In this document: positions 4,340-23,315 of the stretch, piece after piece
Numbering within the stretch: position 1 is the stretch's first letter
How the letters are laid out: each line of letters starts with the position of its first letter
Virus record (IMG/VR): IMGVR_UViG_3300046370_000191
Coordinates: 1 to 23,385 of that record
Length of the DNA stretch: 23,385 nt
Source of the DNA: a virus
Direction: 5' to 3' (one strand)
Notes under the pieces: generated by a model
Database searches by the model: none
What the model was told of the DNA's origin: nothing
The model's input: the letters and a program-made list of their open reading frames with translations, nothing else
Made by a program: the position numbers and the translations under genes

Positions 4340-6831
4340 CAGAGACCAATCCTCTTGCGCTGCGAAGTGTTCTGTCTAAGGGTAGTCAAGGCACGTTGTT
4401 CGCCTTGTGTCGCGCCTTGTGCTGCAGCCTGCTGCATTCCACGCTGGAACTGATCAGCAGTCACATAATCAACGCTATTGATACGTTCCACGGTGTAACG
4501 AACGTCGATTGGTTCGGCAACTGCTGTTCCGCCACCTTCGCCTGAGGTTCCAGAACCGCCCGTTTCGGGAATGACAGAACCACCACGAGCACCGCGAGAA
4601 TAACGCGCCATGCTTTCACGCATTTTGCTTTCAGGGATAACGTATTCAGGTTCACCGCCTTCACCAACAAGAGCATTAGTCGGGCCTGAAACGTAACCGC
4701 CTTCTGCATATCCTGTTGGTATGCCGCCAAGTGATCCAAAAACATTTGAATCGACTTGAGTGAAATTGCCAGTAGCACCAGATGACATTGCGAAGCTACC
4801 ACCGCCAATGCCCAGCGCCTTCATGATCGTGCCGTACAGGATCATCGCCAGCTGCTGCGCAATGATCTTTGCCGCCATATCAAGGAAGTGTTCGGCAACC
4901 GACGCCATCATGTCGGCTAGTGCTTCCTGAGCACTCTTGCTGCCAGTGATGACAGATGTGAAGGCATTGCTGAATGCATTGCCAATAGCAGTTGCACCAG
5001 CAGCAACCTGATTTTCAATCTTGAGTAACTCTTCTAGCTGCTGTTTCATTTGATATCCAGGATCAGCCTCTTGCGCTTTTCGACGCGCTTCTTCGGCTTC
5101 TTCGGCGTCACGTCGTGCTTTTTCGGCGGCATCAGCAGCGGCTTGTGCAGCCTCTTCGCGTTGTATTTCTGCTTCCCTTGCTTCATGCAATTTCTTGATT
5201 AAAACTTCGATGTTGTCAATTTCAGTTTGTTTCAGGTCTGGGAATTGCTTTGCAAGATCTGCAATTTGATGATCCCGCTGCAAAATGCGATCTTTCGCAT
5301 CATCAACTTCATTGGTTAATGCAATTTGTCGTTCAAGTTGTTTGATCATTTCAGCCGCTGATTGCGCTTGTCTTTGGCGACGTTTTTCGGCTTCCTCGGC
5401 TTGCTTTCGTTGTTGTTCTGTTAATTTAGTCTGCCTTTGTTGCTCTGCTTCGTTTGACATTTGATTGATCAAGCCCATATTCAAACCTGCACCCTGTGTT
5501 GCGTCGTACTCTTTGACGCGTGCTGCTTCTTTAAGAAGCTTGACTTGTTCGCGCATTCTGCGAACGCGTTCGATATCACCTTCAAGTACAAAATCTTCGA
5601 CAGCGCCTTGTGCCGCTTTGACTGCTTCTTCTAAACGGTCGGCTTCCTCTGTAAGTTTTTGCGCTTCTTCCTCAAGTTCAGAAACAGGTGCTTCCTCTAA
5701 ACGTTTATTAAACCGGCTTTGTGCAGTGGCTGCGTCGTATAACGAATAGCCAACAGCTGCAACGCCTGCAGCCAGTGCAACCCACGGCGCTGCCGCGATT
5801 AAACCGCCAACACTAATAGCGGCAAGCAAACTTTTAATTGCAGCCAATGCGGGTGCCATCGTCACAAATGCCCCGGTGAGGCCAATGACGGCGGCCGTGA
5901 AAGTTTTAACTGGTCCCGGAAGGTCTCCAAACGCCTTAATGATTTCGGTCAGCTGTTTGACCAATGGAACAACAACAGGCAGCAATTCAGAGCCAACTGC
6001 ATTGCTTAGTTCTGAAACTGCATTGCTAAATGCCTTGAATTGTTGCGCCGGAGATTCTGCTAGTAATGCATCAATCTTGCCTTTGTTCTCGTCAAAACCT
6101 TTTGCTAAAGCATTGATCAAAATGTCCGACGTAATCTTGCCTTCACTACCAAGCTGCTTGAGTTCACCTACCGTAACACCCATCTCTTTTGAGACAAGTC
6201 GCAAAATGCCCGGCACTTGTTCCGCAATAGAGCGGAATTCATCACCCTGCAAACGACCAGAACCGAGCGCCTGACTCAACTGCAAAAACGCACCTGATGC
6301 AGCAGCGGCAGATGTTCCGCTCGCTAGTGCTGTTGCATTAAAGCCTTCGTAAACCGTTTGAACTTGTTCAAGCGAAATACCGAGCGGCCGCAAACGTGCA
6401 TAAGCGTCTGAAAAATTGCTTGCCGCTTCGGCTTGCGATTGATTGAAAGTCCTGGCATTTTTACTTACAAGTTGTTGAATGCGTCCGAACTCGCCATATT
6501 CTTCAGACAGGGCTTTTAGCCGCACTTGTGTTTGCTTAAACTCTGCGGCTTGCCCAATGATTCGTTTCGTTAATGCGCCTGCACCGACGCTAAGAATCGC
6601 TCCGCGAACACCACTTAGCTTATTGGTCAGTGCCCTTGCACCTGCCGCAGCCCGATCAAAAGCAGACCGCATCTGTTTGCCCATGCGGCCAGCCACAACA
6701 GACAAATTACGCATGGCACGTTGCGTGCCAGACATGGTGCGTTGTACTTTTTTGCCTTCCTTGTCAACCTGGCGCAACGGGTTAATAGCTTTGACCGCGT
6801 TGACAATCAGCTCAACGTTGGATACTGCCAC
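4339..6831 (-). CDS. Tail tape measure protein
   Basis: An 830-residue protein starting at GTG 6831, six bases after an AGGT Shine-Dalgarno-like site. Residues about 75-270 contain the tape-measure core signature around GSGRLQGDEFRSIAEQVPG (190-208), typical of the lambda-type TMP_2 domain. Residues about 309-367 are strongly hydrophobic. Residues about 376-620 are a charged Glu/Arg/Ala/Gln-rich coiled coil. A second hydrophobic stretch (MILYGTIMKALGIGGG region) precedes a Gly-rich tail with GPTNALVGEGGEPEYVIPE, a motif common near tape-measure C-termini. In this family the protein sets tail length and lines the tube before DNA ejection. Its length is close to that of lambda gpH (853 residues), suggesting a tail of similar length. 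It follows the chaperone gene pair, as expected. Confidence 0.95.
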   Translation of the reverse strand: MAVSNVELIVNAVKAINPLRQVDKEGKKVQRTMSGTQRAMRNLSVVAGRMGKQMRSAFDRAAAGARALTNKLSGVRGAILSVGAGALTKRIIGQAAEFKQTQVRLKALSEEYGEFGRIQQLVSKNARTFNQSQAEAASNFSDAYARLRPLGISLEQVQTVYEGFNATALASGTSAAAASGAFLQLSQALGSGRLQGDEFRSIAEQVPGILRLVSKEMGVTVGELKQLGSEGKITSDILINALAKGFDENKGKIDALLAESPAQQFKAFSNAVSELSNAVGSELLPVVVPLVKQLTEIIKAFGDLPGPVKTFTAAVIGLTGAFVTMAPALAAIKSLLAAISVGGLIAAAPWVALAAGVAAVGYSLYDAATAQSRFNKRLEEAPVSELEEEAQKLTEEADRLEEAVKAAQGAVEDFVLEGDIERVRRMREQVKLLKEAARVKEYDATQGAGLNMGLINQMSNEAEQQRQTKLTEQQRKQAEEAEKRRQRQAQSAAEMIKQLERQIALTNEVDDAKDRILQRDHQIADLAKQFPDLKQTEIDNIEVLIKKLHEAREAEIQREEAAQAAADAAEKARRDAEEAEEARRKAQEADPGYQMKQQLEELLKIENQVAAGATAIGNAFSNAFTSVITGSKSAQEALADMMASVAEHFLDMAAKIIAQQLAMILYGTIMKALGIGGGSFAMSSGATGNFTQVDSNVFGSLGGIPTGYAEGGYVSGPTNALVGEGGEPEYVIPESKMRESMARYSRGARGGSVIPETGGSGTSGEGGGTAVAEPIDVRYTVERINSVDYVTADQFQRGMQQAAAQGATQGEQRALTTLRQNTSQRKRIGL

Positions 6832-6855
6832 GGCTACCTAAGCGATAGTCACATG

Positions 6856-7385
6856 CTATCGCCGCATTTTGGCGCGTTGCTGTGAACGCTCTTGCTCTTC
6901 CCCTTTAACTGCATAATATGCAGCGTAATAAATCAGCTCCGCATCGGTTAGTTCCGTGCGAAGCCGACTAACAGTCATTCCTAATTCGCAGGACAAGAAA
7001 AACTCAAAATTGAGCCACTTGTCCTGCTTCAGTCGTTTTTTGCCTCGTCAATGTCAGGGTCCGTGCTGACGCCAAACAAGAACAGCTCAAGATCATTTAA
7101 CACCGTTTCAGGCAGTCTGCGTTGCAGTTTCGCGGCATCAGCAGGCGCAAAGGCTTTGGTTCCATCCTCAAGTTCTGCCATTTGGCAAAGCATCTGCGTG
7201 CTGATGTCCAATGCTTCTTCAGTACCAGCAAGACTTGAAGCTTTTTTGCGATCTGCACGAGTGATGGGCTTGAAATACAGATCCGTCAGCTTTTCACCGT
7301 CTGCATTCTTTAGCTCAAATTTACGGCGTTGGTTCAGGTCGAACGCCTCAGTAAGAAGGTCAACCGTTCGCTTTTGCGGTGCCAT
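6856..7385 (-). CDS. Tail assembly chaperone, long form made by -1 ribosomal frameshift (gpGT-like)
   Basis: The 118-residue G-like ORF ends ...EAKND followed by TGA. Its codons GCA AAA AAC contain the heptamer A AAA AAC in the correct phase for a -1 slip at 7041-7035. After the slip, the -1 frame stays open for 59 codons (starting RLKQDKWLNFEFF and ending AKMRR) to TAG at 6858-6856. The fusion would have 176 residues. Known of siphoviruses: such G/GT pairs are made by programmed frameshifting and load onto the tape measure during tail assembly, being absent from the virion. The extension has no convincing start of its own and stops 24 bases before the tape-measure start. Heptamer, phase, open frame and gene position agree. 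The slip frequency cannot be read from sequence. Confidence 0.85.
7029..7385 (-). CDS. Tail assembly chaperone, short form (gpG-like)
   Basis: This is the zero-frame product, 118 residues, starting MAPQKRTVDLLTEAF. It is charged and helical, with the usual layout of tail assembly chaperones placed just before the tape measure. The ATG lies directly after an intrinsic terminator (7387-7414) and no Shine-Dalgarno sequence is visible, because the upstream bases are the T-run of that hairpin. Translation initiation may therefore be weak, or may depend on read-through and unfolding of the hairpin. The 3' end contains the slippery heptamer described separately. The function is assigned from position and architecture rather than from a clear sequence motif. 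Confidence 0.85.
   Translation of the reverse strand: MAPQKRTVDLLTEAFDLNQRRKFELKNADGEKLTDLYFKPITRADRKKASSLAGTEEALDISTQMLCQMAELEDGTKAFAPADAAKLQRRLPETVLNDLELFLFGVSTDPDIDEAKND
7035..7041 (-). promoter_or_regulatory. Programmed -1 frameshift slippery heptamer A AAA AAC
   Basis: On the minus strand the zero-frame codons read GAG GCA AAA AAC GAC TGA. The heptamer A AAA AAC fits X XXY YYZ with both tRNAs able to re-pair after a one-base backward slip. It sits two codons before the G stop. The shifted frame is open to 6856. Confidence 0.85.
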
Positions 7386-20757: not shown

Positions 20758-21114
20758 TCAGATCACCGTCTTGGTGTTGTGATTCGGGTCGGTGCTGTCT
20801 AAGTGTGCTTCGGGGCCGAAACCTTCAGCAGCGATCCGTTGATGAGGAAAGTCTGCCTGCGGTTTTTGGTCTGTATCGAAGGAATCAAACCAAGCGACCA
20901 GTTGATCGCGTGTCGCAGATCCTTTAGTGAGACGCAAATGGCGACGAATATCTGCCGGGTCATGAAAAAACCTGGCGGTGTTGCGGTAGTACAGAACGAA
21001 GGTCGGTGATGGACCTTCGCGTGAGATCAGCCGGTGAACCTGTAGGCCACCAGCCCGAAAGGTGTTCGGCTTCAAAATTGCTGCTTCCGCGCTCACGGAA
21101 GGGCTAAAAATCAA
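20758..21114 (-). CDS. Unknown 118-residue protein in the replication block
   Basis: The frame begins at a TTG (21114) overlapping the initiator stop, with a GTG six codons later (21096) as another possible start; neither has a clear ribosome site. The product contains GGLQVHRLISREGPSPTFVL, YYRNTARFFHDPADIRRHLR and QLVAWFDSFDTDQ. The FHDPADIRRHLR segment, followed by a helix, looks like a small DNA-associated or phage-specific domain, but I do not recognise a family. The C-terminus is polar (STDPNHNTKTVI). Coupled to both neighbours. Confidence 0.65.
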   Translation of the reverse strand: MIFSPSVSAEAAILKPNTFRAGGLQVHRLISREGPSPTFVLYYRNTARFFHDPADIRRHLRLTKGSATRDQLVAWFDSFDTDQKPQADFPHQRIAAEGFGPEAHLDSTDPNHNTKTVI

Positions 21115-21971
21115 AACGGGTCGTCCCCGTTCGGCGCATGATCACGCGGGTCGAATGGTTTTTCAACCCCTGAGGCACCGTTCTCAAGGAACGCTTCATA
21201 TTTGCCGTCTCGCAGCCAACGGAAGCAATCGGGGAACGTGGCCGCAAGTGCCCCTGGGGTGCGTTCTGCGCGTGACTGTTCGTTGACAGCAGCCTTTAGA
21301 GCGTCCTGCAAGGCGCTGTGAGGCGCTTGACGCAGTGCGATGGCGTATTCCTTCGCAGCTTTCGGTTTGGACTGCCCTGAAGCCTTTTTGTCGATGGCTT
21401 GGTATTGCTTCCAGAAGGCGCTGAACTCGTCGGTGTAGGTCGTGCGCTTGCGGGCTGTTTTGTTCGGAACTTGTTCCGTGCCTGCCTGCCGTTGGTTTCC
21501 GTTCGTCTCAGGCGTGTCAATACCGTCCAGCACCTGGAAACCAACAGTATTGGCTGTTGGTTTTATTTGTTTTAGTTGATTTGTTTTAGTTAGGGTGTCA
21601 GGCTGACACCCCCCCCGTGTCACTGTGACACTAGTGTCAGATTGACACCCCGGATCAACACTAGGTTTAGGGGGTGTCAGATTTACACCCCGGTTGTCCC
21701 ACACGCGGACTTCGTAGACGTTGCTGGTCTGCCCGTTTTCCGCAAATCGGTCGGTCTTCACCAGCCAGCCATCGGCTGCCAGTTGCTTTATGACGCGGAT
21801 CACCGTGCTACGCGAAAGCTGCGTGTCGTTCGCAATCCGCTCGTAGCTCGGGAAAATTTCCGGGTAATAGCTCTGCAGCACCCACAACACTGCAAGTTGG
21901 TTCGGTGCAAGGCGACCCCGTAACGCTGTTGGCAGCGCGACAAACGGGGTTTGCTCTGGAATGAATGACAT
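21111..21971 (-). CDS. Replication initiator / replisome-organiser-like winged-helix protein
   Basis: About 286 residues from ATG 21971 (MSFIPEQTPFVALPTALRGR). Starts further upstream (ATG 22055, TTG 22067) would overlap the previous gene and read through a hairpin. Residues about 18-75 form a winged helix-turn-helix of the HTH_36 type (NQLAVLWVLQSYYPEIFPSY, LSRSTVIRVIKQLAADGWL). A low-complexity linker follows. The C-terminal 110 residues (DEFSAFWKQYQAIDKK, PGALAATFPDCFRWLRDGKY) match the tail seen in phage replication proteins that load a helicase. The linker DNA holds four palindromic iterons and an AT-rich repeat, as in lambda gene O. An eight-G run (C on the plus strand, 21609-21616) lies in the coding frame. 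Confidence 0.8.
   Translation of the reverse strand: MSFIPEQTPFVALPTALRGRLAPNQLAVLWVLQSYYPEIFPSYERIANDTQLSRSTVIRVIKQLAADGWLVKTDRFAENGQTSNVYEVRVWDNRGVNLTPPKPSVDPGCQSDTSVTVTRGGCQPDTLTKTNQLKQIKPTANTVGFQVLDGIDTPETNGNQRQAGTEQVPNKTARKRTTYTDEFSAFWKQYQAIDKKASGQSKPKAAKEYAIALRQAPHSALQDALKAAVNEQSRAERTPGALAATFPDCFRWLRDGKYEAFLENGASGVEKPFDPRDHAPNGDDPF
21541..21560. repeat. Inverted repeat next to the AT-rich repeats
   Basis: CCAACAG (21541-21547) and CTGTTGG (21554-21560) are perfect 7-bp arms around TATTGG, immediately beside the AT-rich tandem repeat. On the plus strand a T-rich stretch follows, so it also resembles a weak rightward terminator. Its position suggests a part of the origin structure. Confidence 0.5.
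21565..21592. repeat. AT-rich tandem repeat, possible DNA-unwinding element
   Basis: Two 14-base copies of ATTTGTTTTAGTT(G/A) lie head to tail (21565-21578 and 21579-21592), identical in 13 of 14 positions. The stretch 21561-21592 is far richer in A and T than its surroundings. It lies between an inverted repeat and the iterons, the position of an unwinding element in iteron-type origins. Confidence 0.65.
21595..21688. repeat. Four palindromic 15-bp iterons, putative replication origin
   Basis: Four copies of GTGTCAnnnTGACAC occur at 21595-21609, 21617-21631, 21634-21648 and 21674-21688. Three have perfect 6-bp arms and the fourth has one mismatch (TTACAC). Copies 1, 3 and 4 are flanked by C-rich runs. 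They lie inside the linker of the winged-helix initiator gene and next to an AT-rich tandem repeat. The layout is that of iteron origins within an initiator gene, as in lambda O. Operator function is the alternative. Confidence 0.65.
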
Positions 21972-22018: not shown

Positions 22019-22049
22019 TGACGGTGTTGCCTACACCGTCATTTTTTTT
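22019..22049 (+). terminator. Hairpin with T-run, oriented rightward
   Basis: TGACGGTGT (22019-22027) and ACACCGTCA (22033-22041) form a perfect 9-bp stem with a 5-base loop, followed on the plus strand by eight T residues (22042-22049). This is an intrinsic terminator for rightward transcription, although the genes here are read leftward. It lies in the 67-base leader of the initiator gene; on the minus strand the same stem could influence its translation. Confidence 0.6.
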
Positions 22050-23267: not shown

Positions 23268-23315
23268 CCCTGTCACACGTCAGGGTAGACATCAGGGCAC
23301 ATCAGGGTGCATACT
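23268..23315 (+). promoter_or_regulatory. Putative promoter with phased TCAGGG repeats
   Basis: TAGACA (23286-23291) and CATACT (23310-23315) are separated by 18 bases and resemble sigma-70 -35 and -10 hexamers. TCAGGG occurs three times at 23280, 23292 and 23302 (12 and 10 bases apart, about one helical turn), twice within the spacer. CCCTG (23268-23272) forms an inverted repeat with CAGGG (23281-23285). The set looks like an operator-promoter for the gene that begins at 23342. Confidence 0.4.

Follow-up and report, generated by a model that had tools for sequence, protein, structure and literature searches.

The predicted initiator gene and its protein

The stretch of DNA analysed here (the window) is an IMG/VR record of 23,385 bases from a cyanophage-like virus, which contains, on the minus strand, a gene for a predicted replication initiator, P0001. 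The features of this gene are listed below; the candidate iterons are numbered in the coding direction.

21111..21971, minus strand: predicted replication initiator gene P0001, 286 aa (HTH_36 PF13730, E=2.5e-10; phrog_270 replication initiation protein, E=3.6e-25)
21702..21914, minus strand: winged-helix DNA-binding domain, aa 20-90 (Pfam stretch aa 20-70; AlphaFold)
21771..21812, minus strand: recognition helix, aa 54-67, containing R59 and immediately preceded by S53 (residue invariance in GTGTCA initiators)
21432..21701, minus strand: linker, aa 91-180, predicted disordered (AlphaFold pLDDT about 44-53)
21177..21431, minus strand: C-terminal helical domain, aa 181-265 (AlphaFold; common to relatives with another winged helix)
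21674..21688, no strand: candidate iteron 1, GTGTCAGATTTACAC, one mismatch (pattern match)
21634..21648, no strand: candidate iteron 2, GTGTCAGATTGACAC, exact (pattern match)
21617..21631, no strand: candidate iteron 3, GTGTCACTGTGACAC, exact (pattern match)
21595..21609, no strand: candidate iteron 4, GTGTCAGGCTGACAC, exact, adjoining the AT-rich tract (pattern match)
21562..21591, no strand: AT-rich tract with two 14-mers, putative unwinding element (17% GC over 30 bp)
21538..21563, no strand: inverted repeat AAACCAACAG-N6-CTGTTGGTTT with 10-bp arms, beyond the AT-rich tract
21499..21966, minus strand: exchange cassette of winged helix, candidate iterons and AT-rich tract, swapped as a whole in the relative L007 (blastn)

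The N-terminal part of P0001 belongs to the HTH_36 family (PF13730; 40.4 bits against a curated cut-off of 25), and the best PHROG matches of the protein are replication initiation families, with phrog_270 at the top. PHROG families named O-like are matched as well, namely phrog_391 (1.5e-11) and phrog_678 (1.9e-9), these being profile matches in a comparison that did not extend to lambda O itself. The RepA_N domain (PF06970) has no match in P0001 at E<=0.01 in Pfam. AlphaFold predicts the winged helix with a pLDDT of about 87-98 across aa 21-90, with helices at 23-33, 43-50, and 54-67 and strands at 70-76 and 82-88. The best Foldseek matches, whose E-values are all weak, are to winged helices such as the N-terminal domain of DnaD, and MarR-type regulators are also found among the matches. 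Foldseek further lists 4pt7 and 4pql (E about 0.01-0.02; weak, fold-level matches), of which 4pql is presumably a RepA_N structure. The same assignment is documented for 4PT7 (PMC7145576). Among PDB sequences no match to P0001 was found, and P0001 alone as a query yielded no relatives in a scan of bacterial genomes and a tblastn search of plasmids. A mixed winged-helix alignment had no stretch of sufficient conservation for such a scan. By initiator gene, the nearest named relatives are the Prochlorococcus phages MED4-184/P-HS2 and MED4-117; the gene is annotated as one ORF in the former and as two in the latter (L013:20001-20769), owing to a frameshift or a sequencing error. No helicase or loader was found near the initiator gene among the subset of neighbouring genes searched.

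Two further elements were observed outside the gene. On the plus strand at 22019-22049, just upstream of the initiator gene and antisense to it, lies a terminator-like hairpin, TGACGGTGT-TGCCT-ACACCGTCA followed by eight T, which is present in the relative L006 and nearly so in L007, and which may be where an antisense RNA ends. At 23276-23308, directly after a RusA-like gene, there are short tandem repeats with the unit CACATCAGGGT.

A single array of palindromes in the linker

The repeats reported in the sequence-only reading were all confirmed to lie inside the linker of the winged-helix initiator gene (minus strand, 21111-21971), where, in the coding direction, the palindromes are followed by the AT-rich tract with the 14-mers and then by the inverted repeat. 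Four 15-bp palindromes had been described; all four sites are present, but only three are exact, the fourth (21674-21688) carrying one mismatch. The two 14-base AT-rich tandem repeats are found at 21562-21575 and 21576-21589 (13/14 identical), in a tract that starts 2 bp past the array and is the lowest-GC 30-mer of this 56% GC gene. The inverted repeat exists too, with arms of 10 bp instead of the 7 bp originally given (21538-21547 / 21554-21563); it is retained in L006, and its left arm is missing in the relatives L007 and L008.

The palindromes exceed chance expectation. With up to two mismatches, five matches occur in the window versus 1.28 expected, and 0/100 dinucleotide shuffles reached five. 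Within the gene there are three exact and four near copies, whereas 2000 shuffles of synonymous codons averaged 0.12 and 0.89 and never reached three exact copies; likewise, the linker holds 11 interrupted palindromes with six-bp arms versus 0.87 in synonymous shuffles (maximum 6). Allowing one mismatch, no additional copy turned up in the rest of the window or in a near-identical contig of 44,152 bases, which agrees with the window at the five points checked. The initiator gene contains several repeated candidate binding sites, i.e., the four linker palindromes, in an array that is absent elsewhere in the genome. Recurrence at promoters, which would have spoken for scattered operators and against an origin, was not seen, and promoter operators spread through the genome were rejected, the palindromes being confined to one array in both the window and the 44-kb contig.

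Probable selection at the level of DNA

It could be argued that what is selected in the repeats is the repeated linker peptide, with the DNA similarity a mere by-product. Recurrent peptides are indeed encoded, e.g., GCQSDT and VTVTP, and the repeated peptides GCQSDT and GCQPDT named in the sequence-only reading were both found in the linker translation. However, the same motif yields unrelated peptides from one frame to another, similar arrays also occur in non-coding DNA (see below), the palindromes exceed synonymous shuffles, and the linker is predicted to be disordered; selection on the peptide was rejected and is considered highly improbable, the least probable of the alternatives weighed here. 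The alignment with L006, which shares 89% protein identity and retains all four sites, points the same way: 0/48 half-site positions differ, versus 9/46 in the rest of the array (hand count; hypergeometric p about 0.001). The earlier suggestion that DNA and not protein is under selection is supported, because the half-sites are constant while the spacers vary, several frames are used, and non-coding arrays exist.

The reading frame leaves its own mark on the array. In frame 0 the palindrome reads TGA, and exact copies occur in frames 1 and 2 only, frame-0 copies always having one mismatch. Spacings are mostly 22 and 23 bp, a step of 22 bp leading from frame 1 to frame 2 and a step of 23 bp from frame 2 to frame 1, and in two split genes in which the array lies between ORFs (L051 and L064) every spacing but one is 22 bp. 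This fits putative DNA sites placed at about 22 bp, with the spacing adjusted so that the reading frame stays open.

Exchange of the winged helix together with its repeats

The linker comparison in relatives proposed in the sequence-only reading proved informative. L007 and L008 have the C-terminal half and the flanks in common with the window, but they carry another winged helix and different linker repeats, in a GGTACC-based array. At the DNA level (blastn), the window and L007 are 93.8% identical up to gene position +5, show no match from +5 to +472, and are 93.4% identical thereafter, the DNA of the C-terminal domain being 93% identical. Since the match is lost only from +5 to +472, the exchanged unit comprises winged helix, iterons and AT-rich tract; about 470 bp have been swapped between flanks that are 93% identical. 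A caveat to reading this co-exchange as evidence for an origin is that neighbouring swapped segments could in principle hitch-hike together. In the more distant relatives L009-L013, other linker repeats are found and the AT-rich CTAAAACAA repeats are retained.

The same array in distant phages and in bacterial genomes

To look for far relatives, 2.9 million viral contigs were scanned for two palindromes within 30 bp. At least 60 stretches matched, two of the 60 being relatives of the window, whereas two control patterns with permuted half-sites gave 0 matches in the viral contigs. Among the matches listed, 56/60 viral stretches have, on the same strand, an upstream winged helix whose end is 10-161 nt from the array, as do 9/13 stretches from bacterial genomes; by this profile test no winged helix was found for 4/60 (again among the matches listed) and 4/13, respectively. 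The profile was built from 36 of the matched sequences themselves, and Pfam HTH_36 independently matches 31 of these 36 proteins, whose C-terminal domains vary (DnaT, Phg_2220_C, DnaA_N). Part of the loci are contig fragments. In unrelated phages of many bacterial groups, the equivalent position of the predicted initiator gene holds the same palindromes.

The polarity of the AT-rich element recurs as well. Averaged over 32 non-redundant genes, GC drops to 0.36 some 10 bp past the array, compared with 0.53 in the genes, and no such drop precedes the array; in most of these genes, the one in the window included, the lowest-GC 30-mer of the gene sits just after the array. In the window this adjacent element is the 17% GC 30-mer that begins 2 bp after the array, and its polarity is constant across relatives. 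As a separate observation, L053 (about 420-450 nt into ORF 6477-7358), L099, L117, L150, and L155 have 12-bp direct repeats starting with GAACC after the iterons, encoding the peptide EPxxEPxxEP; these are possibly part of the unwinding element.

Outside coding sequence, the array was found in three phages. L051 and L064 have it between the winged-helix ORF and the next ORF, with AT-rich flanks; the initiator is apparently split in two ORFs, separated by five or six palindromes plus a TA-rich tract. In Bacillus phage vB_BpsM-61, a GTGTCA array and an AT-rich tract lie upstream of an initiator with an S..T..R helix (R59).

This last arrangement would suit the view that the palindromes are operators, used by the winged-helix protein to repress the gene that encodes it or to act as a transcription road-block, the origin being elsewhere. 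Palindromes suit a dimeric regulator, and the Foldseek matches to MarR-type regulators agree with this. In nearly all cases, however, the array is found some 300 bp into the gene, away from the promoter; the most AT-rich stretch of the gene directly follows it; multi-copy arrays at 22-23 bp resemble iterons; and the PHROG families call the protein a replication initiator. Origin and autoregulation could, moreover, coexist. An operator function in place of an origin is therefore regarded as improbable, although it is the least improbable of the alternatives.

Exact palindromes are confined to one array in 4/5 bacterial genomes scanned, the exception being Roseibium with one extra site 6.7 kb off (L053:139-153; G008:C5:1529593), which lies in the same prophage as the array and inside another open reading frame. 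A Clostridia MAG (G768, the source of L074) has nine exact palindromes over eight contigs, mostly single, which probably serve a different regulator; the palindrome motif alone is therefore not diagnostic.

Residues of the recognition helix

S53, T/S/G56, and R59 are invariant in 32/32 non-redundant GTGTCA initiators. The same S53/[TSG]56/R59 signature occurs in 12/31 initiator-like HTH_36 proteins from bacterial genomes, sampled irrespective of iterons (Fisher p about 2e-8, which is overstated because the sequences are related and the signature was picked after alignment). R59 alone was rejected as a marker, as it is too common in other HTH_36 proteins (37/52), and the three-residue signature was therefore used. 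In the HTH_36 sample from bacterial genomes, palindromes in the linker amount to 2.24, versus 0.76 before and 0.82 after it, and other iterons are spaced at about 22-24 bp. Examples of other sites are the GGGTCA-N5-TGACCC iterons of Pseudanabaena phage Pam5 and GTGTCT-N3-AGACAC at 23 and 22 bp in the Paenibacillus plasmid pPC02. K59 is accompanied by GTGAA/TTCAC sites in L101 and plasmid pDSM4216.

The invariance of the recognition helix and the co-exchange with the repeats hint, indirectly, that the initiator binds the palindromes. They also weigh against the array being another cis site of the phage, serving partition, packaging, or recombination and recognised by a different protein: clustered palindromes occur at such sites too, but this array goes closely with the winged helix and with particular residues of its recognition helix, and the two are exchanged jointly. 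Such a site seems very unlikely, somewhat more so than operators.

A probable intragenic iteron-type origin

The most probable reading by far, and one held with considerable confidence, is that the array in the P0001 gene is an intragenic iteron-type replication origin. The complete origin that the sequence-only reading had placed inside the initiator gene is supported by the anatomy of the locus, the recurrence and polarity of the array, its DNA-level conservation, and the co-exchange of the cassette. GC skew of two long contigs tracks gene strand without a clear origin signal and is uninformative here, because it is dominated by gene orientation. As to mechanism, we infer from the sequences that I) dimers of the N-terminal winged helix, with S53, T56, and R59 at the recognition helix, would bind, midway along the gene that encodes them, the GTGTCA-N3-TGACAC palindromes; II) the complex thus assembled would melt the AT-rich tract that adjoins the array towards the C-terminal end; and III) the C-terminal domain would bring in the helicase or its loader. 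Winged helix, iterons, and unwinding element may act as one exchangeable specificity cassette, and the linker peptide may tolerate the DNA repeats because it is disordered.

Such an arrangement fits an established class of intragenic iteron origins (lambda O, SPP1 gene 38, pSK41 rep). In lambdoid phages, four iterons and an adjacent AT-rich region lie in the middle of gene O (PMC7466680), i.e., in the same order as in the window; the iterons differ, a possible homology of P0001 to O rests on the O-like PHROG profile matches, and no P-type loader was identified among the subset of neighbouring genes searched. The lambda analogy drawn in the sequence-only reading is apt, although RepA_N plasmids and especially pPR9 are closer precedents (PMC5703833). 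SPP1 oriL has an AT-rich unwinding element and direct repeats that lie in gene 38 and are bound by the product of this gene, the origin-binding protein (PMC6316719), as proposed for the window; SPP1, however, has a distant second origin, oriR, whereas the 44-kb contig shows no second array. In the RepA_N plasmid pSK41, four Rep boxes midway along the rep gene are bound by the winged-helix N-terminal domain that this gene encodes; the peptide of the linker can be dispensed with, and the C-terminal domain is helical (PMC5703833). The winged helix, the mid-gene sites and the helical C-terminal domain are shared with P0001, but RepA_N plasmids have Pfam PF06970 and A+T-tract Rep boxes, and P0001 has HTH_36 and GTGTCA palindromes. 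In pPR9, an HTH_36 (pfam13730) N-terminal domain and the origin, about 500 bp, were swapped as a unit onto a pSK41 backbone; the C-terminus is >97% identical to that of pSK41, and the mini-replicon is functional and compatible with pSK41 (PMC5703833). The pPR9 Rep resembles P0001 in its domain family and in the exchange of domain with origin; it belongs to a staphylococcal plasmid and not to a phage.

Intragenic iteron origins as such are already known; the novelty appears to lie in the GTGTCA iterons as a class, in how widely they occur among taxa and in the recognition signature. The literature searched, mostly from outside the subscription journals, describes neither GTGTCA iterons in HTH_36 genes nor their breadth nor the three-residue signature. 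To our knowledge, replication origins have been mapped for few tailed phages. If the origin reading is true, the sequences of many uncultured phages would reveal where origin and initiator lie and how they pair, and initiator specificity would become testable through the cassette swaps found in nature. The locus also illustrates overlapping constraints, the spacing of the putative binding sites appearing to be dictated by the need for an open frame. A broader view, for and against which the odds seem even, is that the HTH_36 initiators of phages and of certain plasmids all belong to a single large system made up of self-contained specificity cassettes, the palindrome in the linker being dictated by a few residues of the recognition helix (R59 with S53 and T/S56 for GTGTCA-type sites, other residues such as K59 for other sites). 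Should this hold true, origins and initiator specificities would be readable and predictable from sequence across phyla.
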